A stretch of DNA of 64,000 nucleotides from Halopseudomonas xiamenensis (GTDB lineage: Bacteria > Pseudomonadota > Gammaproteobacteria > Pseudomonadales > Pseudomonadaceae). A model generated the notes under the pieces. It did no database searches and was not told the DNA's origin. It was given only the letters and a program-made list of their open reading frames with translations. A program made the position numbers and the translations under genes. Where the stretch lies: NCBI RefSeq assembly GCF_014219065.1, contig NZ_JACLGO010000004.1:62001-126000 (forward strand), read 5' to 3'. Positions 6,977 to 62,763 of the stretch are shown here, in pieces. The stretch's first letter is position 1. Each line of letters starts with the position of its first letter.

Positions 6977-7609
6977 TCACCCAGGGAGCTGAGCGCAACC
7001 TCGCAGAAACTCATGCGTATGCCGGGCAGCCTGCTCGATCAGCTGTTGCTGATCCAGGCCGCTGCTCTTCAATGGCTTGAAATCATGGTCACCGGACTCC
7101 AGCCAGCTCAGCTGGATCTGCCCGGACAACTCGTAACCCGCTACTTCCTCGGGCTTGCCGAACGGGTCGCGGGTCCCCTGCAGTATCAGCGTCGGGGTGC
7201 GCAGCTGCGCCAGATGCGCGGTACGTGGCCTGTCCGGTTTGCCCGGCGGATAGAAGGGGTAGCCGAAACAGACCAGGCCGGCGGCGCCCAGCTCGTCAGC
7301 CAACAGGCTGGCGACCCGCCCACCCATCGACTTGCCACCGATGAACACGGGGCCGGGCAAGGCCTGATAATGTGCCCGGAAGCTATCCTGCAGCACCGGC
7401 ATGGGGTTTGGCGGTCGTTTACCGCCCAACGCGCGCCGGGTAACCATATAGGGGAATTCGAAACGCAGCACCCTCACACCCTGTGCCGCCAGCGCCTCGG
7501 CCAGCAGCTCGAGGTAATCGCTGTCCATCGGCGCTCCGGCACCGTGGGCCAGCAACAGGGTCACCCTGGCCGCTGCAACAGGGGCCGTTTCAAGAAAGGA
7601 TGGGGTCAT
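6977..7609 (-). CDS. Alpha/beta hydrolase of the KANL3/Tex30 type
   Basis: This 210-residue protein, probably cytosolic, has a complete hydrolase triad: nucleophile Ser94 in GGKSMGG, Asp148 in QGTRDPFG and His175 in SGDHDFKP. The oxyanion-loop AHGAGAPMDS is near residue 21. These are hallmarks of the Tex30/KANL3-like branch, whose bacterial substrates are not known. It converges on dctM, with only 15 bases between the stops. It is unlikely to share function with the TRAP genes. Confidence 0.85.
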   Translation of the reverse strand: MTPSFLETAPVAAARVTLLLAHGAGAPMDSDYLELLAEALAAQGVRVLRFEFPYMVTRRALGGKRPPNPMPVLQDSFRAHYQALPGPVFIGGKSMGGRVASLLADELGAAGLVCFGYPFYPPGKPDRPRTAHLAQLRTPTLILQGTRDPFGKPEEVAGYELSGQIQLSWLESGDHDFKPLKSSGLDQQQLIEQAARHTHEFLRGCAQLPG

Positions 7610-7844
7610 GCGCTACACTCCTGATGGCAGTACCGCTGGTCAGTTCGGATCGTTTCTGGCGGACCAGCTTTTTTGGCCCAGCGCCTTGATTTCGGGCATG
7701 TGCGACATCATGCCACAGCATGCTGCCGGAACCATCCCTTCACAGCTCCAACCCCGGGGCTTATCCTTTGCCCCTCGGTAATCCGGCCTGTGGTGGATAG
7801 CCGCGGAAATCCTTCGCCGACCCTCCCGGCCACTGGCCATTACG

Positions 7845-7886
7845 TTGACATGTGTCATTGCAAACAATACGGGCATTCCTCATACT
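7845..7886 (+). promoter_or_regulatory. Anr box and -10 element of the ccoNOQP promoter
   Basis: TTGAC-ATGT-GTCAT at 7845-7858 differs from TTGAY-N4-RTCAA only in its last base. CATACT at 7881-7886 sits where a -10 element should be if the box is at -41.5, giving a start near 7893 and a leader of about 43 bases before ccoN. The rest of the 326-base gap from 7610 shows no convincing gene or repeat. Confidence 0.75.
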
Positions 7887-7935
7887 GCCGCCGCTTTGAC
7901 CCCCTTTAACCTTTGCTATCCGTGGAATCTCTCGC

Positions 7936-9363
<1,428 letters not shown>

Positions 9364-16561: not shown

Positions 16562-16650
16562 CCGCCAAGCAGTGATAGAATCGCGGCTTATCCGACGTAT
16601 AGCAGCAACGTCATCTCGGCGGCTCGCCATCGACAGTGAGGATTGAAACC

Positions 16651-17379
16651 GTGCCCAATGCCACACCTTTGCTTCACCGCGAGGCGCACTGCAAGGATTG
16701 CAGCCTGGCTTGCATGTGCCTGCCCATCTCCCTGCATGCCGATGAAATGGACGCACTCGACCGTATCGTCAAGCGCGGCCGACCACTGAAGAGAGGTGAT
16801 GTGCTGTTCCGCCAGGGCGATGAGTTCAGTGCCATCTTCGCCCTGCGCAGTGGAGCGATGAAGACCTACAGCCTGTCCGACGAGGGTGACGAGCAGATCA
16901 CCGGCTTCCACCTGGCCGGCGAGTTGATCGGCATGTCCGGCATGGATACCGGCCGCTATACAGTGACCGCCGTGGCCCTGGAAACCACCTCGGTGTGCGA
17001 GATCCCCTTCGACACCCTGGACGAGCTGACCGCGGTACTGCCGCAACTGCGCAAGCAGTTGATGCGGCTGATGAGCCGCGAACTGCGCGAGGACCAGGAA
17101 ATGATGCTGCTGCTGTCACGCAAGAATGCCGACCAGCGCATCGCCACCCTGCTGATCAACCTGTCGGCGCGCTTCCGCGCCCGCGGCTACTCGGCCAAGG
17201 CCTTCCGCCTGGCCATGTCGCGCAACGAGATCGGCAACTACCTGGGGCTGGCGGTGGAAACCGTCTCGCGGGTCTTCACCCGCTTCCAGCAGCAGGGCCT
17301 GCTGCTGGCCGACGGCAAGCAGATCGAGATCCTCGACTATATTCAGCTATGTGCCCTGGCCGGCGGCCAGAACGATTGA
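16651..17379 (+). CDS. anr: Oxygen-sensing Crp/Fnr regulator Anr
   Basis: This 242-residue regulator is the probable reader of the TTGAY-N4-RTCAA boxes in this window. It has an N-terminal Cys cluster ([10 protein letters not shown]), a cyclic-nucleotide-like beta barrel, a later Cys in [12 protein letters not shown], and a C-terminal helix-turn-helix whose recognition helix reads [12 protein letters not shown] (E--SR as in FNR). The GTG start is chosen because GAGGA lies 8 bases before it; an earlier in-frame GTG lacks a good site. One Cys in the cluster (LAC) is extra compared with the usual LAG of Anr. hemN, often directly upstream in pseudomonads, is absent. Confidence 0.93.
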
Positions 17380-44286: not shown

Positions 44287-46373
44287 TTGCCATCCCCATC
44301 ATTGGCGGTACAGATAGCGCATACCGGGGGAGCTGCCAATAATGCCTGGCGCTGTGCTGGTACCAGCAGGTTGCCTGCCTGGGTGGACTCCGTCTTGACC
44401 GTATCGCCCGGCAATAACGCTGTCGCACCTGTTCCCTTACCCGGGCTGCCACCAGAGTTCAGCTTGACGCTGGGGCCGACCAGGCTGATGCCACCGGCAT
44501 CGAGTTTGACGAAGCTGGCGCCGACCTTGAAGGTGATTTCTGCTCCCGCCTCCAGCACGACCTTCATGCCGCTGGACAGATGGATCTCCTGACCAGCGTC
44601 GATGAACTGGCCTTGGCCGAGCTTGATGTGCTGCTGGTTGCCGACGGTCAGGTGGTCATCGGCCCGGATCTCGGTGCGGCGGTCGGCATGGGTGCGGTGG
44701 TGCTCCTCGACCAGGTTCTCTATATAGCGGTTGGCTTCGATGCGCTCGTGCCGTTCATGGCCGACGTGGATACGCTGATCGTGCTGGATGCGCTGGTCCC
44801 AGTCGCGCTGGGCGTGGATGAAGATCTGTTCCTCGCCGGCCTTGTCCTCGATGCGCAGTTCGTTGAAACCCTCCCCGCCGGGGCTGCTCTGGCTCTTGAA
44901 CAGGCTGCGGGTCTTGTGTTCCGGCAGGGTGTAGGGCACCTGGTGGGCGCTGTTGTACAGGCAGCCCGAGACCAGTGGCTGGTCCGGATCACCTTCGAGG
45001 AAGCTGACCAGCACTTCCATGCCGATGCGCGGGATAGTGATGCTGCCCCACTGGTTGCCGGTCCAGCTGCTGGCTACCCGCAGCCAGCAGCTGGTATGGG
45101 CGTCGGCCTGGCCTTCGCGGTCCCAGTGGAACTGGACCTTGATCCGGCCCTGGGGATCGCAGTGGATGTCTTCGTGTTCGGGGCCGGTGACGGTGGCGGT
45201 TTGGGTGCCCAGGATTTTAGGTTTGTGGTGGTGCAGGGCTGGGCGGTGGGGGGTGTCCCAGGGGGTGGCGGTGAAGTGGTTGCGGTAGCCTTGGTAGAAG
45301 GCTTCTTTGGGTTCTTTATCCCCCTCTCCCCGGCCCTCTCCCGCGAGGGGAGAGGGAGTCAGGGCGTGCGAACCTGATGGGGTGGTGATGGACTCTTCCA
45401 GCACTTGGGGTTGTTTGCCGTGGTGGTGGATGTCGGTGAGTAGCCAGAGGTCGTTCCAACTGGTGCGGGGGTGGCCTTGTAGTTCGAGGAAGTGACCGCT
45501 GCGCAGGGTGGGTTGGTCGCTGTGGCCGTGGGCCTGATGGTAGTCGCTGCGGTGTCGCTCCAGGGTGCGGCGGGCCAGGTGTTTGCAGCGGTGGCGGTCG
45601 TGGAACTGGCCGGGGTAGTGGTAGTCCTCCAGGTCCGGCAGTTGCTCGCTGCGGGCTTCGCCTTCCAGTAGCAGGCGGGCCTTGTTGTGGTCGTAGTCGC
45701 GGCGGGTGACGCGGCTGCTGCGGGTTTCCAGGCGGACGCCGAAGCGCTTGACCACCGGTTCATCGGCGACCAGGCCGTTGCCTTGCTCGAAGCCGGTCGG
45801 TTCGAGACGTGGAAAGGCGGTCTGGTCGTCGCCGAATACCAGCAGGTGGCCGTCCTGGCTGTGGCGGAAGTGGTAGTGAATGCCCTCTTCCTCGCACAGG
45901 CGCTGGATAAAATGCAGGTCGCTCTCGGCGTACTGGGTGCAGTAGTCGCGCTGGGGATACTCGCTGCCGAGCTGGAAGGCGTAGGCATCGGCGTGGATGC
46001 CGTGCTCTTCGAGCAGGCGGGCGATGATCTGCGGCACGCTGAGGTGCTGGAAGATGCGCTGGTTGTGACGCAGAGCCAGGTAGTGCAGCTGGGGTACCAG
46101 TTCCAGGCGGTAGCGGGTCAGGCGCTGGCCGGATTCGCCGATGGCGGCGTGGTGCACCAGGCCGTGCAGGCCACTGCCGTTGTCCAGGTCCAGCCAGGCG
46201 CTGCGTTGCAGCAGGGCTTCGAGGTCCAGGTCGGGCTGTTCGCTGACCAGTTGCAGTTCGATACGGTAGCACTGGTTGATGGCTTCGCGGGCGCGGAATT
46301 CGAGGACCTTGAAGTCGTGTTCGAGGCCGGGCAGGCTCAGGGTGAAGTGGGGCTCATTGGCCGGGGCAAACAT
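44283..46373 (-). CDS. vgrG: Type VI secretion spike protein VgrG
   Basis: This 696-residue spike has the gp27-like N-terminal half (from HDFKVLEFRAREAINQCYRIEL through DLHFIQRLCEEEGIHYHF to WLLTDIHHHG), the gp5-like OB domain (EHEDIHCDPQGRIKVQFHWD, then GNQWGSITIPRIGMEVLVSFLEGDPDQPLVSG), and a C-terminal beta-helix (residues 520-640). A short tail with VCAICT follows. A palindromic repeat is read in frame at about residues 339-351. No hcp or tss structural genes adjoin it, so it is an orphan vgrG. Confidence 0.95.
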   Translation of the reverse strand: MFAPANEPHFTLSLPGLEHDFKVLEFRAREAINQCYRIELQLVSEQPDLDLEALLQRSAWLDLDNGSGLHGLVHHAAIGESGQRLTRYRLELVPQLHYLALRHNQRIFQHLSVPQIIARLLEEHGIHADAYAFQLGSEYPQRDYCTQYAESDLHFIQRLCEEEGIHYHFRHSQDGHLLVFGDDQTAFPRLEPTGFEQGNGLVADEPVVKRFGVRLETRSSRVTRRDYDHNKARLLLEGEARSEQLPDLEDYHYPGQFHDRHRCKHLARRTLERHRSDYHQAHGHSDQPTLRSGHFLELQGHPRTSWNDLWLLTDIHHHGKQPQVLEESITTPSGSHALTPSPLAGEGRGEGDKEPKEAFYQGYRNHFTATPWDTPHRPALHHHKPKILGTQTATVTGPEHEDIHCDPQGRIKVQFHWDREGQADAHTSCWLRVASSWTGNQWGSITIPRIGMEVLVSFLEGDPDQPLVSGCLYNSAHQVPYTLPEHKTRSLFKSQSSPGGEGFNELRIEDKAGEEQIFIHAQRDWDQRIQHDQRIHVGHERHERIEANRYIENLVEEHHRTHADRRTEIRADDHLTVGNQQHIKLGQGQFIDAGQEIHLSSGMKVVLEAGAEITFKVGASFVKLDAGGISLVGPSVKLNSGGSPGKGTGATALLPGDTVKTESTQAGNLLVPAQRQALLAAPPVCAICTANDGDGK
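45320..45358. repeat. CCCTCTCCC palindromic repeat within vgrG
   Basis: The element matches the CCCTCTCCC / GGGAGAGGG repeat pair found after glpK, with a GCGAGGGG core. It is a multiple of three in phase with vgrG and is translated as TPSPLAGEGRGEGD. This falls in the linker between the gp27-like and gp5-like parts, so the frame and fold survive. Confidence 0.85.
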
Positions 46374-46530
46374 CCGTTGTCCTCATCTGTTCTCGCCAGA
46401 GGCAACCAGCACCGGCTGCCCACATGATGGGCAGGCATTGTCACAAAATCAGGCTTGAATGGATGTGCGCCAGTTGGCAGAACCCGCATCTGCAGCACAA
46501 TTCATGCACAGGATGAATAAAACATCACAT

Positions 46531-46562
46531 GCAAAAAAGCCCGGGCCAAGGAGCCCGGGCTT
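46531..46562 (-). terminator. Terminator of the TonB receptor-nirS unit
   Basis: AAGCCCGGGC pairs perfectly with GCCCGGGCTT around a 6-base loop. On the minus strand it is followed by T6. It lies about 55 bases past the nirS stop. Confidence 0.88.
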
Positions 46563-46616
46563 GATCATTGAACTGAACGGGAGCGCCAGGAGCTCCCGCC
46601 ACTTCAACCAGCAGTC

Positions 46617-50433
<3,817 letters not shown>

Positions 50434-50488
50434 CCTGATCGCTCCTCATGACATGTCTGCATGATGGAACGTCCGGGGAAGGGAGTGC

Positions 50489-50502
50489 TTGACCTCTGTC
50501 AA
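50489..50502 (-). promoter_or_regulatory. Perfect Dnr/Anr box before the TonB receptor
   Basis: TTGAC-CTCT-GTCAA is a perfect palindromic Crp/Fnr-type site. Its centre is 62 bases before the receptor ATG. A CATCAT hexamer at 50461-50466 (minus strand) would be the -10 if the box is at -41.5, with a GAGGAG ribosome site next. It is about 190 bases from the predicted nirQ start, too far for standard class II action there. Confidence 0.8.
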
Positions 50503-50563
50503 GGGAGTGTGCGTCATGCTGACGCAGCCGATTGGGTGCGACATACCATCGCACCCAGAAAAT

Positions 50564-50620
50564 GGTCAAAAAAACCATAAAAGGTTTTTAGAACCAAAAC
50601 CGCTTACGGTTTTTTTAACC
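50564..50620 (+). promoter_or_regulatory. Three GGT-N7-ACC sites (NorR-type enhancer) upstream of nirQ
   Basis: Three copies of GGT-N7-ACC lie at 50564-50576, 50583-50595 and 50608-50620 in an otherwise A/T-rich stretch. This is the core described for the nitric-oxide-sensing activator NorR of Ralstonia eutropha, which also uses three sites. They lie about 68 to 124 bases upstream of the predicted transcription start, a usual enhancer distance. The same stretch can fold into two small AT-rich hairpins. norR itself is not in the window. Confidence 0.7.
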
Positions 50621-50660
50621 TTTAAAACAAATAAATCTTTAAAATCAACAAGTTAAAACA

Positions 50661-50676
50661 TGGCACATTCCTTGAT
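50661..50676 (+). promoter_or_regulatory. Near-consensus sigma-54 promoter of nirQ-nor
   Basis: TGGCAC-N5-TTGAT matches the -24/-12 consensus TGGCAC-N5-TTGCW except for A in place of C in the -12 GC dinucleotide (GG-N10-GA). The start would be near 50688, leaving a leader of about 25 bases with AAGGAA before the nirQ ATG. The mismatch lowers confidence, but the NorR-type sites upstream support it. Confidence 0.55.
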
Positions 50677-50712
50677 AGAGAAACAGCGAACGCATCTTTC
50701 AAGGAATCACCC

Positions 50713-51561
50713 ATGGACGCAACCCGGTTAGACCTCCATCCGCAGCCGCAAGGTGGGCTTTTCTACCATGCCAGCGGTAGCGAGGTTGAACTCTTCGAGC
50801 AGGCCGACCGCTTCGGCATGCCGGTACTCATCAAGGGGCCGACCGGCTGTGGCAAGACCCGCTTCATCCAGCACATGGCCGAACGCCTGGGACGCAAGCT
50901 GTATACCGTCGCCTGCCATGATGACCTGACCACCGCCGACCTGGTCGGTCGCCACCTGATCGGTGCCAACGGCACCTTCTGGCAGGACGGCCCGCTGACC
51001 CGCGCCGTGCGCGAAGGAGCCATCTGCTACCTGGACGAGGTCATCGAGGCACGCAAGGATATCACCGTGGTCCTGCACCCGCTGGCCGATGACCGGCGCA
51101 TCCTGCCACTGGAAGCCACCGGCGAAGAACTACAGGCCGCACCGGGGTTCATGCTGGTGGTGTCCTACAACCCCGGCTACCGCAACCTGCTCAAGGGGCT
51201 CAAGCCCAGTACCCGCCAGCGCTTCGTGGCGATGGCCTTCGATTATCCCGAGGCGGCGGTGGAGAGCCGCATCCTGCAGCACGAATCCGGCCTCGATCCC
51301 GTCAATGCCGACCAGTTGGTAGCCCTGGGCAATGCCCTGCGCCACCTCGGCCAGCATGACCTGGAAGAAGCGCCCTCGACCCGTCTGCTGATCCATACCG
51401 GCCGCCTGATCGCCGCCGGCATGGACCCGCGCCAGGCCTGCGAAGCCTGCATGGCACAGCCACTCACCGACGAACCCACCGCCCAGGCGGCAATCATGGA
51501 TGTGGTCAGAGCGCACTTTGCCGAACCCGGACAACAACAACCCAACAGAAGATTCGCCTGA
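50713..51561 (+). CDS. nirQ: NirQ/NorQ MoxR-type AAA+ ATPase
   Basis: This 282-residue cytosolic ATPase has Walker A GPTGCGKT (residues 42-49), Walker B ICYLDEVIEA and a sensor region VSYNPGYRNLLKGLKPSTRQRF, all as in NirQ/NorQ/CbbQ. With the VWA protein NorD it activates the NorCB complex, probably through insertion of the non-haem iron. It heads the nor operon, 38 bases before norC, with NorR-type and sigma-54-type sites upstream. Confidence 0.94.
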   Translation: MDATRLDLHPQPQGGLFYHASGSEVELFEQADRFGMPVLIKGPTGCGKTRFIQHMAERLGRKLYTVACHDDLTTADLVGRHLIGANGTFWQDGPLTRAVREGAICYLDEVIEARKDITVVLHPLADDRRILPLEATGEELQAAPGFMLVVSYNPGYRNLLKGLKPSTRQRFVAMAFDYPEAAVESRILQHESGLDPVNADQLVALGNALRHLGQHDLEEAPSTRLLIHTGRLIAAGMDPRQACEACMAQPLTDEPTAQAAIMDVVRAHFAEPGQQQPNRRFA

Positions 51562-51599
51562 ACGGCGAGCATGCAATCCGCATAACCGAGGAGATCAAC

Positions 51600-52046
51600 A
51601 TGTCGGAGCGCTTTACCAAGGGCATGGCCCGCAACATCTACTACGGTGGCGGCATGTTTTTCATGCTGCTGTTCATTGGCCTGACGGTGGATACGGTCAC
51701 CGCGATTCCGGAACGGGAAAACCGCGACCAGCTCACCGCCGAAGTCGCTCATGGCAAGCATCTATGGGAGAAGAACAACTGTGTAGGCTGCCACTCACTC
51801 ATGGGCGAAGGCGCTTATTTCGCACCTGAGCTGGGCAATGTGTTCGACCGTCGCGGCATGGGTAACGAGGCTGCATTCAAGGCCTATTTCGGTGCCTGGA
51901 TGAAGGCCATGCCCACCGGCGTGGAAGGTCGTCGGCAGATGCCGCAATTCAACCTGTCAGAAGAAGAACTCAATGCCATGGCCGAGTTCCTGATCTGGTC
52001 ATCGCGGATCGACACCAACGACTGGCCACCAAACAAGGAAGGCTGA
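51600..52046 (+). CDS. norC: Nitric oxide reductase subunit C
   Basis: This 148-residue membrane-anchored cytochrome c delivers electrons to NorB. One N-terminal helix (residues 13-32) leads into the periplasmic haem domain with C61-VGCH and an axial Met in RRQMPQF. Length and motifs match cNOR subunit C. GAGGAG lies before the ATG. Confidence 0.96.
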   Translation: MSERFTKGMARNIYYGGGMFFMLLFIGLTVDTVTAIPERENRDQLTAEVAHGKHLWEKNNCVGCHSLMGEGAYFAPELGNVFDRRGMGNEAAFKAYFGAWMKAMPTGVEGRRQMPQFNLSEEELNAMAEFLIWSSRIDTNDWPPNKEG

Positions 52047-52056
52047 ATACGACTGA

Positions 52057-53490
<1,434 letters not shown>

Positions 53491-53577
53491 GCCGAGACGC
53501 CGGACCGCGGTCCGGCGTCTTCCCATTTTCGCGGTGGCGGCTGACCAGCCGCCACTGATCACCACCGGGAGGTTGCA

Positions 53578-55419
53578 ATGGAAGAAGCCGTAGGTATTCG
53601 CTGGCATCGGCTGATCACCCGTCTGGCTGGCGATGGCTTTCCCCAGGCGCGGGTCCGACTGGAGGACGAAGGTCCCCGCCTGGCCATGGTCTTCCGTGCC
53701 CTGAGCGGAGACCCGGGCCTGACCATCAAGGCCAGCACCGAACGCAGTCTCGACACCTGGCGGCCGCTGGCCCAGCGCCTGGCCGGCACCGGCCGCCGCC
53801 ATGCACTGGCCTGGCGCGAGGCCGACGCACTACGGGTACCGCACAGCCTGGAAGTCTTTCCCGAACAGGCGATGAACCGCGACCTGTACCTGTGGCTGGC
53901 GGCGCTGGCCAGCCAGGCCGGGGAACCGACCGACCACGATTGGCTGCGCGGCAACCAGCACCTGGTGCTCAAGACCCTGCGGGCCTTTCCCGGCCTCGAA
54001 CCACTGTATCGCAGTCTGGCCCACTGCCTGGTGGATATCCGCCGCCAACGCAAACTGCCAGCAGCCCAGGCGCAGCGCGAGCGTTGCCTGCAGGCGGCCT
54101 TGCTCGATCCCGGCAGCCGGCAACAGTGGCCGGATACCTCGGGCCAACCCTGGCCGGTACCGCTGTGGCTGTATCCACTGCCAGAGCAGGCACTGGCGCT
54201 GCCGGCGGCGGCCAATGACAGCGACGCGGATGGCGAAGGCCATGGCGGCGGCAAGGTACGGCAGAGCAAACAGCGCAAGCAGGGGCGTTATGTCGATGAC
54301 CCGAACAAACGCAACGGCCTGATGATCTTCCGCCTGGAAAGCCTGTTCTCCTGGTCCGAGTTCGTACCGGTGGACCGCTGTGAGGACGACCAGGACGATG
54401 AGGATGCCGAACGTATCGCCGAGGACCTGGACTACCTGACCCTCTCGCGCAATCCCAGTACCAGCGCCTCGCGCATCAAGCTGGACATGGACCTGCCCTC
54501 CGCCTCGGAGGACGACATGCCGCTGAGCGATGGCAACCTGTTCCCTGAATGGGACTGGAAGAAGCAGCAGCTCAGGGACAACCACTGCCGGGTCATACCC
54601 ATGCTGCCACGCGACGCCGAGCCGGCACCGCTGCCGCAGCGCCTGCGACCGCTGGCCAGTAACCTGCGCCAGCGCTTTCAGGGGCTGCAGCCGCAACGGG
54701 TATGGGAAAAACGCCAGGCCAACGGCACCCTGCTCGACCTGGATGCCTGCCTGCACCACGCCGCCGACCTGCGCCGAGGCTGCGCCACCTCGCAACCGGC
54801 GCTGTGGCGCCGCGAGACCGCACGACACCGTGACCTGGCCTGCCTGGTGCTGGCCGACCTGTCACTGTCCACCGAAGCCTGGGCGGACAACCAGCACCAG
54901 GTGATCGAGGTGATCCGCGACAGCCTGCACCTACTGGGCGAAGCACTGGACGCCGGGCATGACGATTTCGCCATGTACGGCTTCTCCTCCCGGCGCCGCG
55001 ACCATGTGCGTTTCAATCTGATCAAGAACTTCGCCGAACCCTGGGGCGAGGCCATTCATGGACGTATCAAGGCGCTCAAGCCCGGTTACTACACGCGCAT
55101 GGGCGCGGCTATCCGCCAGGCTACCGAGGTGCTCAAAGACAAGCCCGCCGAACAACGCCTGTTGCTGCTGCTGACCGATGGCAAACCCAACGACCTGGAC
55201 GTCTACGAGGGTCGCTATGGCATGGAAGATACCCGCCAGGCACTGCTGGAAGCTCGCAAGGCCGGCATCCAGCCATTTTGCGTGACCATCGACCAGCAGG
55301 CCGCCGACTACCTGCCCTACCTGTTCGGCCAGCAGCGCTACCAGTTGATCCGCCAGGCCGCCGAACTGCCCGGCCTGCTGCCGAAACTCTATCTACTGCT
55401 GACCGGGAGAACGACCTGA
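53578..55419 (+). CDS. norD: NorD, VWA-domain activator of NO reductase
   Basis: This 613-residue cytoplasmic protein has a long helical N-terminal part and an acidic linker (about 265-290). A C-terminal von Willebrand A domain shows a MIDAS-like DLSLSTEAW near residue 425 and LLLTDGKPNDLDVYEG near residue 525. NorD acts with NirQ to insert the FeB iron into NorB. Its stop overlaps the norE start by one base (TGATG). Confidence 0.94.
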   Translation: MEEAVGIRWHRLITRLAGDGFPQARVRLEDEGPRLAMVFRALSGDPGLTIKASTERSLDTWRPLAQRLAGTGRRHALAWREADALRVPHSLEVFPEQAMNRDLYLWLAALASQAGEPTDHDWLRGNQHLVLKTLRAFPGLEPLYRSLAHCLVDIRRQRKLPAAQAQRERCLQAALLDPGSRQQWPDTSGQPWPVPLWLYPLPEQALALPAAANDSDADGEGHGGGKVRQSKQRKQGRYVDDPNKRNGLMIFRLESLFSWSEFVPVDRCEDDQDDEDAERIAEDLDYLTLSRNPSTSASRIKLDMDLPSASEDDMPLSDGNLFPEWDWKKQQLRDNHCRVIPMLPRDAEPAPLPQRLRPLASNLRQRFQGLQPQRVWEKRQANGTLLDLDACLHHAADLRRGCATSQPALWRRETARHRDLACLVLADLSLSTEAWADNQHQVIEVIRDSLHLLGEALDAGHDDFAMYGFSSRRRDHVRFNLIKNFAEPWGEAIHGRIKALKPGYYTRMGAAIRQATEVLKDKPAEQRLLLLLTDGKPNDLDVYEGRYGMEDTRQALLEARKAGIQPFCVTIDQQAADYLPYLFGQQRYQLIRQAAELPGLLPKLYLLLTGRTT

Positions 55420-56027
55420 TGCACAGTCCCGAATCCGTACTGAGCCAGGCCGACAGCCTGGAACAACCGCGCCAGCTGCCCGGCGACCTGGCCATGTGGT
55501 GCTTCATCCTCGCCGAACTGCTGGCCTTCCTGTTGCTGCTGGGCAGCATGGCCTTTGCCCGCGGGCACTGGGGCGAGATGTTCAGTACCGGCATCGCCAC
55601 CCTGCACCCAGAGGCCGGGCTGATCAATACGGTCTTCCTGCTGACCGGCAGCTACTTCGCCGCCCGGGCCGTGCACCGCGCCCAGGCCGGCGATCACCGC
55701 GCGCTGGTCAGGGGCTTCATCCTGGCCGCGGCGTGCGGCCTGCTGTACGTCGGCGTGAAGGTCAGCGAATACGGCATGCTGTTCGCCGATGGCTACAACC
55801 TGCGCAGCAGTACCTTCTATTTCTTCTACTTCTTCACCACCTTCTTCCACATGGCCCACGTACTGATCGGCATGCTCATCCTGCTGGTGGTCGCCTGGCG
55901 TTGCCGGCAGGGGCAGTACGCCAACCAGGAAAAGGTCAGGATGGCCAGCGAGTCGGCCGCCAGCTACTGGCACATGGTCGACCTGGTCTGGCTGGTACTG
56001 TTCCCGCTGCTCTACGTGCTGCCCTGA
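55419..56027 (+). CDS. norE: NorE, subunit-III-like membrane protein of NO reductase
   Basis: This 202-residue protein of the cytochrome c oxidase subunit III family has five helices. Diagnostic parts are LPGDLAMWCFILAELLAF, TVFLLTGSYFAARAVH and YFFYFFTTFFHMAHVLIGM. It is an accessory to NorCB and is known as NorE or NirO in related operons. I chose the ATG directly after the norD stop; the open frame extends further up inside norD. Confidence 0.9.
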   Translation: MHSPESVLSQADSLEQPRQLPGDLAMWCFILAELLAFLLLLGSMAFARGHWGEMFSTGIATLHPEAGLINTVFLLTGSYFAARAVHRAQAGDHRALVRGFILAAACGLLYVGVKVSEYGMLFADGYNLRSSTFYFFYFFTTFFHMAHVLIGMLILLVVAWRCRQGQYANQEKVRMASESAASYWHMVDLVWLVLFPLLYVLP

Positions 56028-56038
56028 GGAGATCACCA

Positions 56039-56284
56039 ATGAAACGCTTCGCCCTGGAAATCGGCCTCGCCGGCCTGCTGCTGTTGACCCTGGCCGCCTG
56101 GCTGCTGGGCCATAACCTGGCCGGCACCTGGGTGGTCGGCTGTGTGCTGGCCCTGACCTTCGTCAAGGGCCAGTGGCTGATCGACCAGTTCATGGGTTTG
56201 CGCCAGGCGCCGCAATGGTTGCGCTGGATCGTCAGCGGCTGGCTGCTGCTGGTAGTGGGAATGACGGCGCTGTTCAATATGTAG
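56039..56284 (+). CDS. norF: NorF-like small membrane protein, subunit-IV type
   Basis: This 81-residue protein has three hydrophobic helices and the prokaryotic subunit IV pattern (LALTFVKGQWLIDQFMGLRQAP). It starts with MKRFALEIG 11 bases after norE, with GAGGAG upstream. NorF or NirP proteins with this form follow norE in other nor operons and support full NO reductase activity. Its 3' end overlaps the convergent ubiT by 11 bases. Confidence 0.85.
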   Translation: MKRFALEIGLAGLLLLTLAAWLLGHNLAGTWVVGCVLALTFVKGQWLIDQFMGLRQAPQWLRWIVSGWLLLVVGMTALFNM

Positions 56285-56783
56285 GGTCTGCTGCCTGTAC
56301 CTGCGGCCCCTTGCCCTCTTCCTTCGCCGCCGCCCCCAGCCAACTGATCAACTGCCACAGCCGCGGCGGCATCAGGTCGGAATCCAGACTGTCCACCAGG
56401 TTCTTGATCGCCAAACCCAGATCGGTATCCCCCTCGATCACCAGGCGGCGGCGGAAGAACAGCGTATCGGGGTCCTCCTGGCGGCTGGCCAGCAGCAGGA
56501 ACTCCTTCCAGTTGCCGCGAATGCACACATCCGCCTGCGAGTCCCTGGCCAGCCGCAAGCCAACGGCATCACGGGTCAGGCTCCAGGCCATGCCCAGGTC
56601 ACTGATCTCGATCCGCAGCCAGCGTCCCTGCAGCACATCGAACTCGCCGTCTTCCAGCGGCTCGGCGAACAGCCGGGCCATGGCCTTCTCGATGACCAGC
56701 TTCTGCAACCCGAAAGGCACGTGCCGGCCCAGCGGCAACAGCGGCTGTCCAGCCCGCAACACCAGGTTGGCGACATTCAACAT
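56274..56783 (-). CDS. ubiT: UbiT, SCP2-domain protein of anaerobic ubiquinone synthesis
   Basis: This 169-residue protein has an SCP2 lipid-binding domain (LQGRWLRIEISDLGMAWSLTRD, then DTLFFRRRLVIEGDTDLGLAIKNL). It is thought to carry ubiquinone precursors for the oxygen-independent pathway with UbiU and UbiV. Length matches E. coli UbiT. It ends the ubiU-ubiV-ubiT operon, overlapping ubiV by 7 bases, and converges on norF. Confidence 0.92.
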   Translation of the reverse strand: MLNVANLVLRAGQPLLPLGRHVPFGLQKLVIEKAMARLFAEPLEDGEFDVLQGRWLRIEISDLGMAWSLTRDAVGLRLARDSQADVCIRGNWKEFLLLASRQEDPDTLFFRRRLVIEGDTDLGLAIKNLVDSLDSDLMPPRLWQLISWLGAAAKEEGKGPQVQAADPTY

Positions 56784-57667
56784 AGACCGACCTCCTCTAC
56801 CGTCAGCATGCCCGCCTGGCCATGCCAGTAACCGTTGCAGCCATCCACCGCCAGCGGCGGCTGGCCACCACGGCGTACCTCATCGAACTGCTGCACTATC
56901 TCATTCATGTTCTGCGCCCGCGGGCTCAGGCGCAGCGCATCGATGCCCATGCGCGCCATGCGCGGATACTCGGCCAGCAGATTGCTGATACCGCCGGACA
57001 TGGTCTGGATGCCGTTCAGGGTGAACAGCACCTGTCCCTCCTGGGTGGTCATCGGAATGCCCTCGGGATAGTTCTGGCAGATGAAACCGCAATCGTCCTT
57101 GGGCAGGTTTTCCGCCCGGGCAGTGAAACAACGCGCCGAGTACGCCAGCGGCAGGTAGCCCCAGGCGAACACCTCGATCTCCGGCAGCGACACATCGGCG
57201 TCGCGCGCCTGTTCGATCAGCGCCGCCAGCAAGTGCGCCGAGCACTCCACCGGTGGCACCCAGCGGGACATGCCCCGGCTGACCAGTTCATCCAGGGCGT
57301 AGGCGTTGTAGATGTTCAACGCCGGGCCGCCGACAAACTCCACGCCGCGGCTGCTGAGAAACTGCACGGCGGCCATGTCGTTGGCCTCGACCTTGATCTC
57401 GCCGTTCTCGCACAACCGGCGCAGGCTGGACAGCTCCGACGCCGCCTCGATCAGGGTCAGGCCCGACAGCACCACCTCGGCGCCGCTGGCCTGGCGCAGC
57501 TCCCGCGCCAGGCCCATCCAGTCGTCCAGCGACAGCGCCCGGCGCTTGGAACAGACGGTCTCGCCCAGATAGATCACCTCCAGCGGCTGTTCGGCCATAT
57601 CGGCATAGAAGTCCATGATCTGCTGACGCTGCCAGTAGAACAGGATCGGCCCCAGGGTCAATTTCAT
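56777..57667 (-). CDS. ubiV: UbiV, U32-family Fe-S hydroxylase subunit
   Basis: This 296-residue member of the U32 peptidase family has the four [4Fe-4S] cysteines at 39, 180, 193 and 197, the positions known for E. coli UbiV. They appear in ETVCSKRR and in RCFTARAENLPKDDCGFICQ. With UbiU it hydroxylates ubiquinone precursors without oxygen. I use the ATG at MKLTLGPILF; the longer frame runs back into ubiU sequence. It starts 10 bases after ubiU ends. Confidence 0.94.
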   Translation of the reverse strand: MKLTLGPILFYWQRQQIMDFYADMAEQPLEVIYLGETVCSKRRALSLDDWMGLARELRQASGAEVVLSGLTLIEAASELSSLRRLCENGEIKVEANDMAAVQFLSSRGVEFVGGPALNIYNAYALDELVSRGMSRWVPPVECSAHLLAALIEQARDADVSLPEIEVFAWGYLPLAYSARCFTARAENLPKDDCGFICQNYPEGIPMTTQEGQVLFTLNGIQTMSGGISNLLAEYPRMARMGIDALRLSPRAQNMNEIVQQFDEVRRGGQPPLAVDGCNGYWHGQAGMLTVEEVGLC

Positions 57668-57677
57668 GGTATTTCTC

Positions 57678-58673
57678 CTACTGCCAGGCGCGATGATAGG
57701 CGCCCAGGGTGGTCTGACTGCCTTCGGAAACGGTGTCCAGCACCCGCCGCCAGGCATCCTCGACGGCGAAGCGCTGCGGGTTGGCGCGGTACGCATCCAG
57801 CGCCTTGCGCCAGACCCCGGCGACCTGTTCGACATAGGCAGGGCTGCGCTGGCGACCCTCGATCTTGACCGCCTCGACACCAATCTCGACCAGTTGCGGA
57901 ATCAGATCCATGGTATTCAGGCTGGTCGGCTCCTCCAGCGCATGGAAGCGCTTGCCATGCACCATGAAGCGCCCCTTGCACAGGGTCGGGTAGCCCGCCG
58001 CCTCGCCTTCGGCATAACGGTCGATGAGTACGTCGTTGAGCCGCGAACTGAGCCCGTCGGCACCCTCGCTCCAGCGCACCGCACTGGCAGGCGAACAGAC
58101 ACCACACAGATTCGGCGACTCGCCGGTGACATAGGACGACAGGTGACAACGGCCCTCGGCCATGATGCACAGGCTGCCGAAGGCGAACACTTCCACCGGT
58201 ACCGGGCTGGAGGCCGCCACCTGGCGCACCTGATTGAGCGACAGGACCCGCGGCAGCACGGTGCGGCGGATGCCGTACTGCTCGTGATAGAAGCGCAACG
58301 CCGCAGCATTGGTCGCCGAACCCTGCACCGACAGGTGCAGGGACAGCTTCGGGTGGTGCTTGCTGGCATAGGCCAGCACGCCCGGGTCACCGGCGATCAG
58401 CGCATCGGCACCGAGGTCGGCGGCGCGGTCAACGGCACGCTTCCAGCGCGCCCAGCCATCGGGCAAAGCATAGGTGTTAACGGCGATATACAGCTGCCGG
58501 CGCTCGCGCCGGATCAGCTCCAGGCCGCTTTCCAGCTGTTTATCGGTAAAATTGAGACCGGCGAAATGACGGGCATTGGTATCGTCGCGAAAGCCGGTGT
58601 AGATGGCATCCGCACCCTGACGCACCGCCGCCTTGAGGGCAGGCAGGCTACCTGCGGGACAGACCAGTTGCAT
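57678..58673 (-). CDS. ubiU: UbiU, U32-family Fe-S hydroxylase subunit
   Basis: This 331-residue partner of UbiV has Cys at 169, 176, 193 and 232, the cluster ligands of E. coli UbiU, within GSLCIMAEGRC, NLCGVC and TLCKGRF. MQLVCPAGSLPALKAAVRQGADAIY is the family start. It leads an operon preceded by a perfect Anr box, so anaerobic induction is expected. The block matches the need for ubiquinone by the adjacent NO and nitrite reductases when no oxygen is present. Confidence 0.94.
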   Translation of the reverse strand: MQLVCPAGSLPALKAAVRQGADAIYTGFRDDTNARHFAGLNFTDKQLESGLELIRRERRQLYIAVNTYALPDGWARWKRAVDRAADLGADALIAGDPGVLAYASKHHPKLSLHLSVQGSATNAAALRFYHEQYGIRRTVLPRVLSLNQVRQVAASSPVPVEVFAFGSLCIMAEGRCHLSSYVTGESPNLCGVCSPASAVRWSEGADGLSSRLNDVLIDRYAEGEAAGYPTLCKGRFMVHGKRFHALEEPTSLNTMDLIPQLVEIGVEAVKIEGRQRSPAYVEQVAGVWRKALDAYRANPQRFAVEDAWRRVLDTVSEGSQTTLGAYHRAWQ

Positions 58674-61188: not shown

Positions 61189-62763
61189 ATGTTGGACGCC
61201 AATCTGAAGAAGCAACTGGACACGTACCTGCAGAACATCGTTAAACCGATCGAAATCAGCGTGTCCGTAGATGACAGCCCCAAGGGCAAAGAATTGCATG
61301 AACTGGCGGTCGAAATCGCCGAGATGTCGGGCAAGATCGGCCTGGTGGCCGTGGACAACCAGCGCATCCCGAGCATGGCCGTGGCTGAAGCCGGCCAGAG
61401 CCCCCGCGTGCGTTTTGCCGGCATCCCGATGGGCCACGAGTTCACCTCCCTGGTTCTGGCTCTGCTGCAGGTCGGCGGTCACCCATCCAAGGCTGACCCG
61501 GCGCTGCTCGAGCAAATCCGCAATCTCGAAGGCAAGTATCACTTCGAGACCTATATCTCCCTGTCCTGCCAGAACTGCCCCGACGTGGTCCAGGCGCTGA
61601 ACCTGATGGCCACGCTGAATCCGAACATCACCCACGTGATGATCGACGGCGCACTGTTCAAGGACGAGGTCGAGAGTCGGCAGGTCATGGCCGTACCCAC
61701 CGTGTTCCTCAATGGCGAGCACTTCGGGCAGGGCCGCATGACCCTGGCCGAGATCGTCAACAAGGTCGATACCGGCGCAGCGCAGCGCAAGGCCGCCGAG
61801 CTGAACGAGAAAGAGCCCTACGAAGTGCTGGTCGTCGGCGGAGGTCCAGCAGGCGCCGCAGCGGCCATCTACTCCGCCCGCAAGGGTATCCGCACCGGAC
61901 TGGTTGCCGATCGCTTCGGTGGCCAGGTGATGGACACCGTCGGTATCGAGAACTTCATTTCGGTGCCCTACACCGAAGGTCCGAAGCTGGTCGCCAGCCT
62001 GGAGCAGCACGTCAAGGAATACGACGTGGACGTGATCACCGAGCAGAGCGCCGCCAGGCTGACCAGCAATGGCCTGGTCGAGATCGCCCTGGAAAGCGGT
62101 GCCACCCTGCGCAGCCGTTCGGTGATTCTGGCCACCGGTGCCCGCTGGCGGGAAATGAACGTGCCCGGCGAGCAGGAATATCGTGGCAAGGGCGTGGCCT
62201 ACTGTCCGCATTGCGATGGCCCGCTGTTCAAGGGCAAGCGCGTCGCGGTGATCGGTGGCGGCAACTCCGGTATCGAGGCAGCCATCGACCTGGCCGGCAT
62301 CGTCGAGCATGTCACCGTGCTGGAGTTCAGCGACACCCTGCGTGCCGACGAGGTGCTGCAACGCAAGGCCCGCTCGCTGCCGAACGTGAAGATCATCATG
62401 AACGCGGCGACCAGCGAAGTGCGCGGTGACGGCAACAAGGTGGTGGGTCTGACCTACACCGACCGGGTCTCCGGCGAAAGCGCCAAGGTCGATGTGGCCG
62501 GCATCTTCGTGCAGATCGGTCTGGTTCCCAACACCGACTGGCTGAAAGACAGCGACGTCAACCTGACCCGCTTCGGCGAGATCGAGATCGACGCCCGCGG
62601 CGCCACCTCGGTGCCCGGTGTGTTCGCCGCCGGTGACGTGACCACGGTGCCGTTCAAGCAGATCGTCATCGCCATGGGCGCGGGCGCGACCGCTTCACTG
62701 GCCGCCTTCGACCACCTGATCCGCACCTCGACCGAGGCCGAGCCGGAAAAAGCCAGCGCTTGA
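61189..62763 (+). CDS. ahpF: Alkyl hydroperoxide reductase flavoprotein subunit
   Basis: This 524-residue NADH-dependent flavoprotein recycles AhpC. The N-terminal double-thioredoxin-like domain holds SCQNCPD (about 127-130). FAD binding is at [12 protein letters not shown], the redox CPHCDG near residues 339-342, NADH binding at [12 protein letters not shown], and the C-terminal FAD motif at [10 protein letters not shown] chose the ATG at MLDANLKKQ, which matches the family start; the frame is open further up across the terminator. Confidence 0.96.

Follow-up and report, generated by a model that had tools for sequence, protein, structure and literature searches.

A putative NorR-dependent sigma-54 promoter of the nirQ-nor operon in Halopseudomonas, with a NirQ lineage shared with distant bacteria

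Which regulator switches on the nitric oxide (NO) reductase operon of Halopseudomonas? We examined this question in a 64,000-nucleotide stretch of Halopseudomonas xiamenensis DNA (NZ_JACLGO010000004.1, positions 62,001 to 126,000, forward strand; hereafter, the window), in which nirQ heads a cNOR operon. The original prediction, made from the letters of the window, placed this operon under NorR, in contrast to the Dnr/Anr control of nirQ and nor in well-studied Pseudomonas species. We conclude that a sigma-54 promoter very probably drives nirQ-norCBD(-norE) under NO-sensing NorR, and that the operon belongs to a NirQ lineage shared with bacteria outside the family.

Table 1. Features of the nirQ-nor region and norR paralogues of H. 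xiamenensis (positions in the window unless a contig is given)
Feature	Sequence	Position	Strand	Remarks
Divergent TonB-receptor/nirS genes		46617-50433	minus	
DNR/ANR-like box	TTGACCTCTGTCAA	50489..50502	.	8/10; placed for divergent TonB-receptor/nirS genes
Imperfect inverted repeat, 17 bases	TGCGACATACCATCGCA	50537..50553	.	29-30 bases before site 1, measured from GGTGCGACATACC
Putative NorR-type enhancer site 1	GGTCAAAAAAACC	50564..50576	+	GGT-N7-ACC; half-sites conserved in relatives
Putative NorR-type enhancer site 2	GGTTTTTAGAACC	50583..50595	+	Step of 19 from site 1
Putative NorR-type enhancer site 3	GGTTTTTTTAACC	50608..50620	+	Step of 25 from site 2
IHF-like box	AATCAACAAGTTA	50643..50655	+	Fits WATCAANNNNTTR; −24 box 18 bases further on
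Sigma-54-like promoter	TGGCACATTCCTTGAT	50661..50676	+	TGGCAC-N5-TTGAT type
Predicted transcript start		50687	+	By counting from −24/−12 boxes
nirQ/norQ		50713..51561	+	AAA_5 and CbbQ/NirQ/NorQ C-terminal domains; AAGGA at 50701
norC, cytochrome c subunit		51600..52046	+	Named from domain and place
norB, COX1-family catalytic subunit of cNOR		52087..53490	+	Named from domain and place
norD		53578..55419	+	Named from place only; no Pfam match
norE/nirO-like COX3 protein		55419..56027	+	Start codon inferred
norR-A				Divergent from dnrN(RIC)-nnrS
norR-B				Divergent from flavohaemoglobin gene hmp
norR-C (L023)		G000:C38, 9422-11017	minus	Directly upstream of nosR (7148-9310, minus)

The three GGT-N7-ACC sites and the TGGCAC-N5-TTGAT-type box are present as predicted (Table 1); 53 bases lead from site 3 to the box, which has GG at 50662-50663, G at 50674, and, as the original prediction had cautioned, A in place of C at 50675, the −12 position. 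Because single GGT-N7-ACC sites are 3.6-fold more frequent in the window than expected (51 observed versus 14), only the spaced array counts: the 64 kb, searched on both strands, hold no second array with steps of 18-21 and 24-26 bases, and when the 279-base gap was dinucleotide-shuffled 20,000 times, three sites never arose. This confirms that the array and sigma-54-like box before nirQ-nor are real. An element missed by the original prediction, which had listed the array and promoter correctly, is an IHF-like box at 50643, called by its fit to WATCAANNNNTTR, which we take to be the IHF consensus; IHF acts at NorR promoters. Two other readings of the −12 box were rejected by eye: TTGAT as a DNR half-box, because the second half fails to match in the species read, and TTGATA as a sigma-70 −35, because no suitable −10 lies ahead of the start codon. 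An Rfam scan of positions 46000-56000 found nothing at the gathering threshold.

The proposed likeness to Ralstonia extends to the spacing. Between the divergent norR and norA genes of Cupriavidus necator (Ralstonia eutropha) H16, three GGT-N7-ACC sites have steps of 19 and 26 bases and stand 52 bases from a TGGCAC sigma-54 box (19/25/53 in the window), and C. necator NorR is 63.9% identical to the H. xiamenensis paralogue NorR-A. The gene targeted in C. necator, norA (annotated ytfE), precedes a gene for the NO-reductase large subunit, whereas Halopseudomonas has a further array at a distance from norR, ahead of the cNOR operon nirQ-norCBD. In the Escherichia coli norR/norVW region, the three sites are GT-N7-AC with steps of 21 and 24 (span 45), the outer G/C of the half-sites not being kept; the sigma-54 box, with GC at −12, stands 67 bases beyond the third site (by the same count as in C. 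necator), the target is flavorubredoxin, and the NorR loop is GAFTGA rather than the GAFSGA found here. All three norVW enhancer sites are essential, according to the available text of the E. coli study (PMC2941729). Rodionov et al. (2005) predicted NorR sites before hmp in Pseudomonas, dnrN in P. stutzeri, and norB in Ralstonia and Shewanella putrefaciens; the available main text of that paper mentions neither nirQ nor norCB and reports no NorR site before nirQ-norCB (PMC1274295). In Methylophaga nitratireducenticrescens JAM1, norR (Q7A_0435) and cnorB1 (Q7A_0433) are close in locus tags, and the available text describes no operator or promoter for them (PMC5710167). A search by title and abstract opening, which covered little of the subscription literature, found no report of NorR control of nirQ-norCB in a pseudomonad.

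Is the array kept within the genus? Our survey comprised 37 genomes, the window's own among them, of which 17 have nirQ (NirQ identity of at least 73%; second copies of 59-63% were set aside). Sixteen of these loci, again including the window's own, have a readable promoter, the other (L037) being cut off before it. The array and a TGGCA-type box are kept in all 16, as expected by the original prediction for close relatives that have the operon. Steps are 18-20 and 25-26 bases, followed by 53-54 to the box; 10 arrays have three perfect sites and 6 have one site at 5 of 6 bases, and across promoters the half-sites are constant while the inner seven bases drift. In 13 of the 16 (six exact, seven near fits), an IHF-like box precedes the −24 box by 18 bases; it was not found in the other three. 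In G021, where nosR is the divergent neighbor of nirQ, the array is retained, as it is in G015, which lacks the DNR/ANR box. The G021 locus lies in a denitrification island of ∼25 kb (C2; L271/L272) with nirQ-nor, a nos cluster, a Crp/Fnr-family gene, a second cNOR, nnrS, dnrN, and norR-A, most of these genes being named by eye.

A fourth GGT-N7-ACC match, GGTGCGACATACC at 50535, was dropped as a candidate: its inner seven bases are identical in seven of the eight species having the match, unlike those of the three array sites, and it is therefore, judging from this constancy, probably not a NorR site. The 17-base inverted repeat TGCGACATACCATCGCA is exact in 7 of 16 species (the window's clade) and altered in an eighth; it is also present in G015, although the DNA further upstream differs there. 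At up to three mismatches, the genome holds six forward and three reverse matches to TGCGACATACCATCGCA, versus three and three for a reversed control. One match is the nirQ locus itself, and none of the others makes a convincing second home; the best of four is a near copy, TGCGACATACTGTCGCA, at C40:10211 before a Yip1-like gene (named by eye). Viral contigs held no match.

Elsewhere in the family, the nirQ promoters examined are of another kind. Of 398 genomes surveyed, 141 have NirQ (E up to 1e-80), 124 of them outside the genus, and we examined upstream DNA at 33 of these 124 loci, with 9 of the 10 genera besides Halopseudomonas represented. Each of the 33 carries, ∼60-100 bases before nirQ, a box of FNR/DNR type scoring 9 or 10 out of 10, and a pattern search found neither a NorR array nor a sigma-54 box in any of them, as the original prediction had supposed for Dnr/Anr-controlled pseudomonads. 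Pseudomonas and Stutzerimonas nirQ/nor thus resemble the Halopseudomonas operon in gene, family, and the use of an NO-responsive regulator, but carry the DNR-type box TTGA(T/C)-N4-ATCAA instead. In a set of 80 named nirQ loci, 78 had enough upstream DNA. The array was found at seven loci of Halopseudomonas type (L059-L064, L066) and in one MAG each of Nitrococcus (L068) and Bacterioplanes (L069); the remaining 69 lack it. In the order as a whole, NirQ is present in 74 of 390 genomes, and 1 of 28 loci examined (25 outside the family) has the array; this locus, G608, adds no new case because its NirQ is identical to that of Bacterioplanes. In these counts beyond the genus, no promoter is expected at loci where nirQ does not head the operon.

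If the array is a NorR operator, which NorR would use it? The sigma-54 activator domain has 23 matches in the genome, 16 of them full; three of the full matches, picked by eye from their translations, scored 695-736 bits against NCBIfam NF003451 (cut-off, 476), so that the genome search suggested for norR yielded three paralogues. All three have a GAFSGA loop and keep the residues at E. coli positions R75, D96, Y98, D99, H111, and C113, which we presume to have functional roles in the GAF domain. NorR-A has S at the position of R81, whose number and role in E. coli NorR we likewise take as given, and its loop reads GAFSGA instead of GAFTGA; C. necator NorR has A at the R81 position and S in the same loop position. 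These two substitutions count against NorR-A, as does the location of norR-A on a different contig from nirQ in this draft genome; norR-A lies within 20 kb of nirQ on the same contig in 9 of the 17 nirQ genomes. NorR-A is nonetheless the likeliest activator of nirQ, judging from co-occurrence, because it is present in all 17 nirQ genomes and is the only NorR match in four of them (G001, G009, G013, and G036). It is found in 3 of the 20 genomes without nirQ (G016, G023, and G033). NorR-B (10 of 37 genomes) or NorR-C (9 of 37) could also bind the nirQ array.

The array grammar of nirQ recurs beside norR-A; the original prediction had suggested looking for the same sites near a norR gene. All 20 norR-A genomes of the genus carry this array between norR-A and dnrN, every site being perfect in 16 of them and one site off in 4; dnrN was confirmed in each, and an IHF-like box stands 17-19 bases before the sigma-54 box in 16 of the 20. 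In G036 the sigma-54 box is displaced to 185 bases after site 3, and in the window's genome the first site touches the norR-A start codon. Among norR-A orthologues from other genera, 9 of 10 read have the array, the exception being G151. In the norR-B/hmp gap (L022, G000:C11 5500-5620), where hmp was confirmed in all 10 cases, the window's genome has three TGT-N7-ACA sites and its relatives have a mixture of TGT, GGT, and AGT sites, a pattern that hints, on sequence grounds, at different operator preferences among NorR paralogues. norR-C has its own divergent array of mixed CGT/TGT, GGG/GGT, and TGT sites; a sigma-54-like box with A at −12 beside it precedes a small glycine-zipper-like gene (named by eye).

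The base at −12 counts against reading the nirQ element as a NorR promoter: besides the A in the window, it is not C in 9 of 16 nirQ promoters (7 A, 2 T), whereas C is present in 19 of 20 dnrN promoters (one A; G036 scored at its distant box) and in 10 of 10 hmp promoters. The nirQ-dnrN difference has a Fisher p of 0.0017, although the species are related; by eye on the NirQ tree, about two events suffice for the change. Because relatives share the A, including Bacterioplanes, whose nirQ box also has it, comparison of these promoters indicates that it is inherited and not a sequencing fault. GAFSGA was rejected as a sufficient cause, since 38 of 39 NorR proteins of the genus have this loop, also where the adjacent promoter has C. 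None of the nine promoters divergent from norR-C has C (8 A, 1 G); boxes with A or T are found at nirQ and at norR-C, adjoining nos, and not at the dnrN/hmp promoters of the same genomes. We offer only as speculation, and think it distinctly unlikely, that A or T at −12 marks a separate subclass of NorR-activated sigma-54 promoters whose altered fork would be read by a GAFSGA NorR, giving the genes of NO/N2O reduction a different NO threshold from those of detoxification.

The −12 base also bears on whether NorR-C rather than NorR-A could be the main nirQ activator in this clade. NorR-C, encoded directly upstream of nosR, is present in nine genomes, and all eight of these with a readable nirQ promoter have A or T at −12, a departure from C that the promoter divergent from norR-C shares; among the other eight genomes only G009 (A) departs from C. 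G009, however, has its A without NorR-C, the eight species form one lineage in the NirQ tree, so that the association may be a single event, and nirQ arrays are of the same GGT-N7-ACC type in species lacking NorR-C, whose own array is mixed; we therefore consider this assignment unlikely. That ANR or DNR drives nirQ from the box at 50489, the array being a remnant or accessory, is very improbable. The genome does encode ANR (L285, in the window at 16636-17379), a Crp/Fnr-family protein without the Fnr cysteines that we take for DNR (L289, C11:218.9 kb), and a second relative (L287), and the gap contains an 8/10 box. But this sole box lies ∼191 bases from the predicted nirQ start and ∼56 from the start codon of the divergent TonB receptor, facing that gene as the original prediction had noted, so that no FNR-type box stands at activating distance before nirQ, where the 33 promoters outside the genus have theirs. 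In addition, G015 has the array without the box, and constant half-sites and spacing through 16 species are hardly expected of a remnant. Because the array lies in a shared gap, it might instead serve the TonB-receptor/nirS genes; its polarity (19, 25, then the −24 box) points toward nirQ, and it is kept both in G021, with nosR as the divergent neighbor, and in G015, with a terminator-like sequence upstream (by eye), which makes this extremely unlikely. The NorR-type reading of the nirQ promoter is thus supported by sequence comparison, with NorR-A as its likeliest activator.

How the operon came by this promoter may be read from the NirQ tree, built from 82 rows (a selection of loci) after three long-branched rows of a first tree were excluded. 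The 16 Halopseudomonas proteins share a clade with Ectothiorhodospiraceae, Nitrococcus, Bacterioplanes, and Thalassolituus (100/99), apart from the clade of 21 other Pseudomonadaceae (99/94); support for Halopseudomonas as a single clade is only 86/81. Consistent with this, norC is 81% identical to that of Bacterioplanes and 64-66% to those of the other pseudomonads compared; the gap is small for norB, compared over partial sequences (80% versus 76-79%). The order nirQ-norC-norB-norD is common to Bacterioplanes, an Ectothiorhodospiraceae locus, and Hahella, whereas norE directly follows nirQ in four of five other pseudomonad loci compared; since the order Q-C-B is also found in one other pseudomonad (L237) and two further members of the order, and the longer order in Hahella, gene order is weak evidence for lineage. 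The simplest reading is that the operon may have arrived together with its NorR promoter, transfer being suggested by a tree of NirQ alone, and nor would then have the NorR switch in place of the pseudomonad switch apparently because operon and switch belong to a lineage shared with distant bacteria. Against joint arrival, Thalassolituus and its kin, in the same NirQ clade, have partial arrays or none. The promoter could instead have been rewired in place, losing a DNR box and gaining a NorR array without replacement of the operon: a donor for the array was available, since other genera of the family also have norR-A with its dnrN array, and the L237 locus has the nirQ-norC-norB order. We regard such rewiring as rather unlikely in view of the position of NirQ outside the Pseudomonadaceae clade with array-bearing outsiders, the norC identities, and the usual placement of norE after nirQ in other pseudomonads.

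DNR is probably still at work elsewhere in this genome, judging from a perfect DNR-type box that precedes nosR and from the 8/10 box on the side of the TonB-receptor/nirS genes; the departure from other pseudomonads is thus one of nor and not of the entire pathway. nirS is immediately preceded on its own strand by the TonB-dependent receptor gene, with a gap of at most ∼50 bases (the nirS start is uncertain). On the other side, one SCP2-domain gene and two peptidase-U32 genes (56274-58673) adjoin the nor operon; we assume that these are probably the ubiT/ubiV/ubiU genes, which serve ubiquinone synthesis without oxygen.

Another cNOR operon, norC2-norB2-norQ2-norD2 (genes named by eye; L270, G000:C22 6922-12060, minus strand), is present in the genome; its NorQ2 is 63% identical to NirQ. 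The ∼300 bases upstream contain neither a NorR array nor a strong DNR box, and we rejected this operon as a NorR target because it lacks the array; in G021, norC2 has a 9/10 DNR-type box upstream. Thus, not all NO reductase is under the NorR array. The original prediction had added that, if it was right, NO reductase would answer NO directly in this organism. The NorR promoter on which this rests is supported by sequence, but two corrections apply: the second cNOR lacks this array, and DNR of other pseudomonads responds to NO as well, as described in the available text of Rodionov et al. (PMC1274295). Because DNR is also NO-responsive, what changes would be the sensor and the sigma factor, perhaps with release from the ANR/oxygen cascade, and not NO-responsiveness as such.

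In the mechanism we propose, NorR, most likely NorR-A, would occupy the three GGT-N7-ACC sites in oligomeric form, with the AAA+ ring blocked by the protein's GAF domain until NO bound to the GAF iron relieves the block. A bend introduced by IHF at 50643-50655 would bring the ring to sigma-54 RNA polymerase at 50661-50676, and transcription would begin near 50687. NO produced through nirS, itself probably under DNR/ANR, would in this way switch on the enzyme that removes it without need of DNR, the Halopseudomonas nirQ operon using the operator grammar of the resident NorR-A circuit (norR-A/dnrN-nnrS). Control of a key denitrification step would then differ in class, sigma-54/NorR versus DNR, within a well-studied family, apparently through exchange of an operon together with its switch. 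We predict that the appearance of NO would be enough for Halopseudomonas to make cNOR, with no need of the anaerobic DNR cascade, a point of relevance to N2O release; carrying the Pseudomonas aeruginosa regulon over to Halopseudomonas would give the wrong answer.
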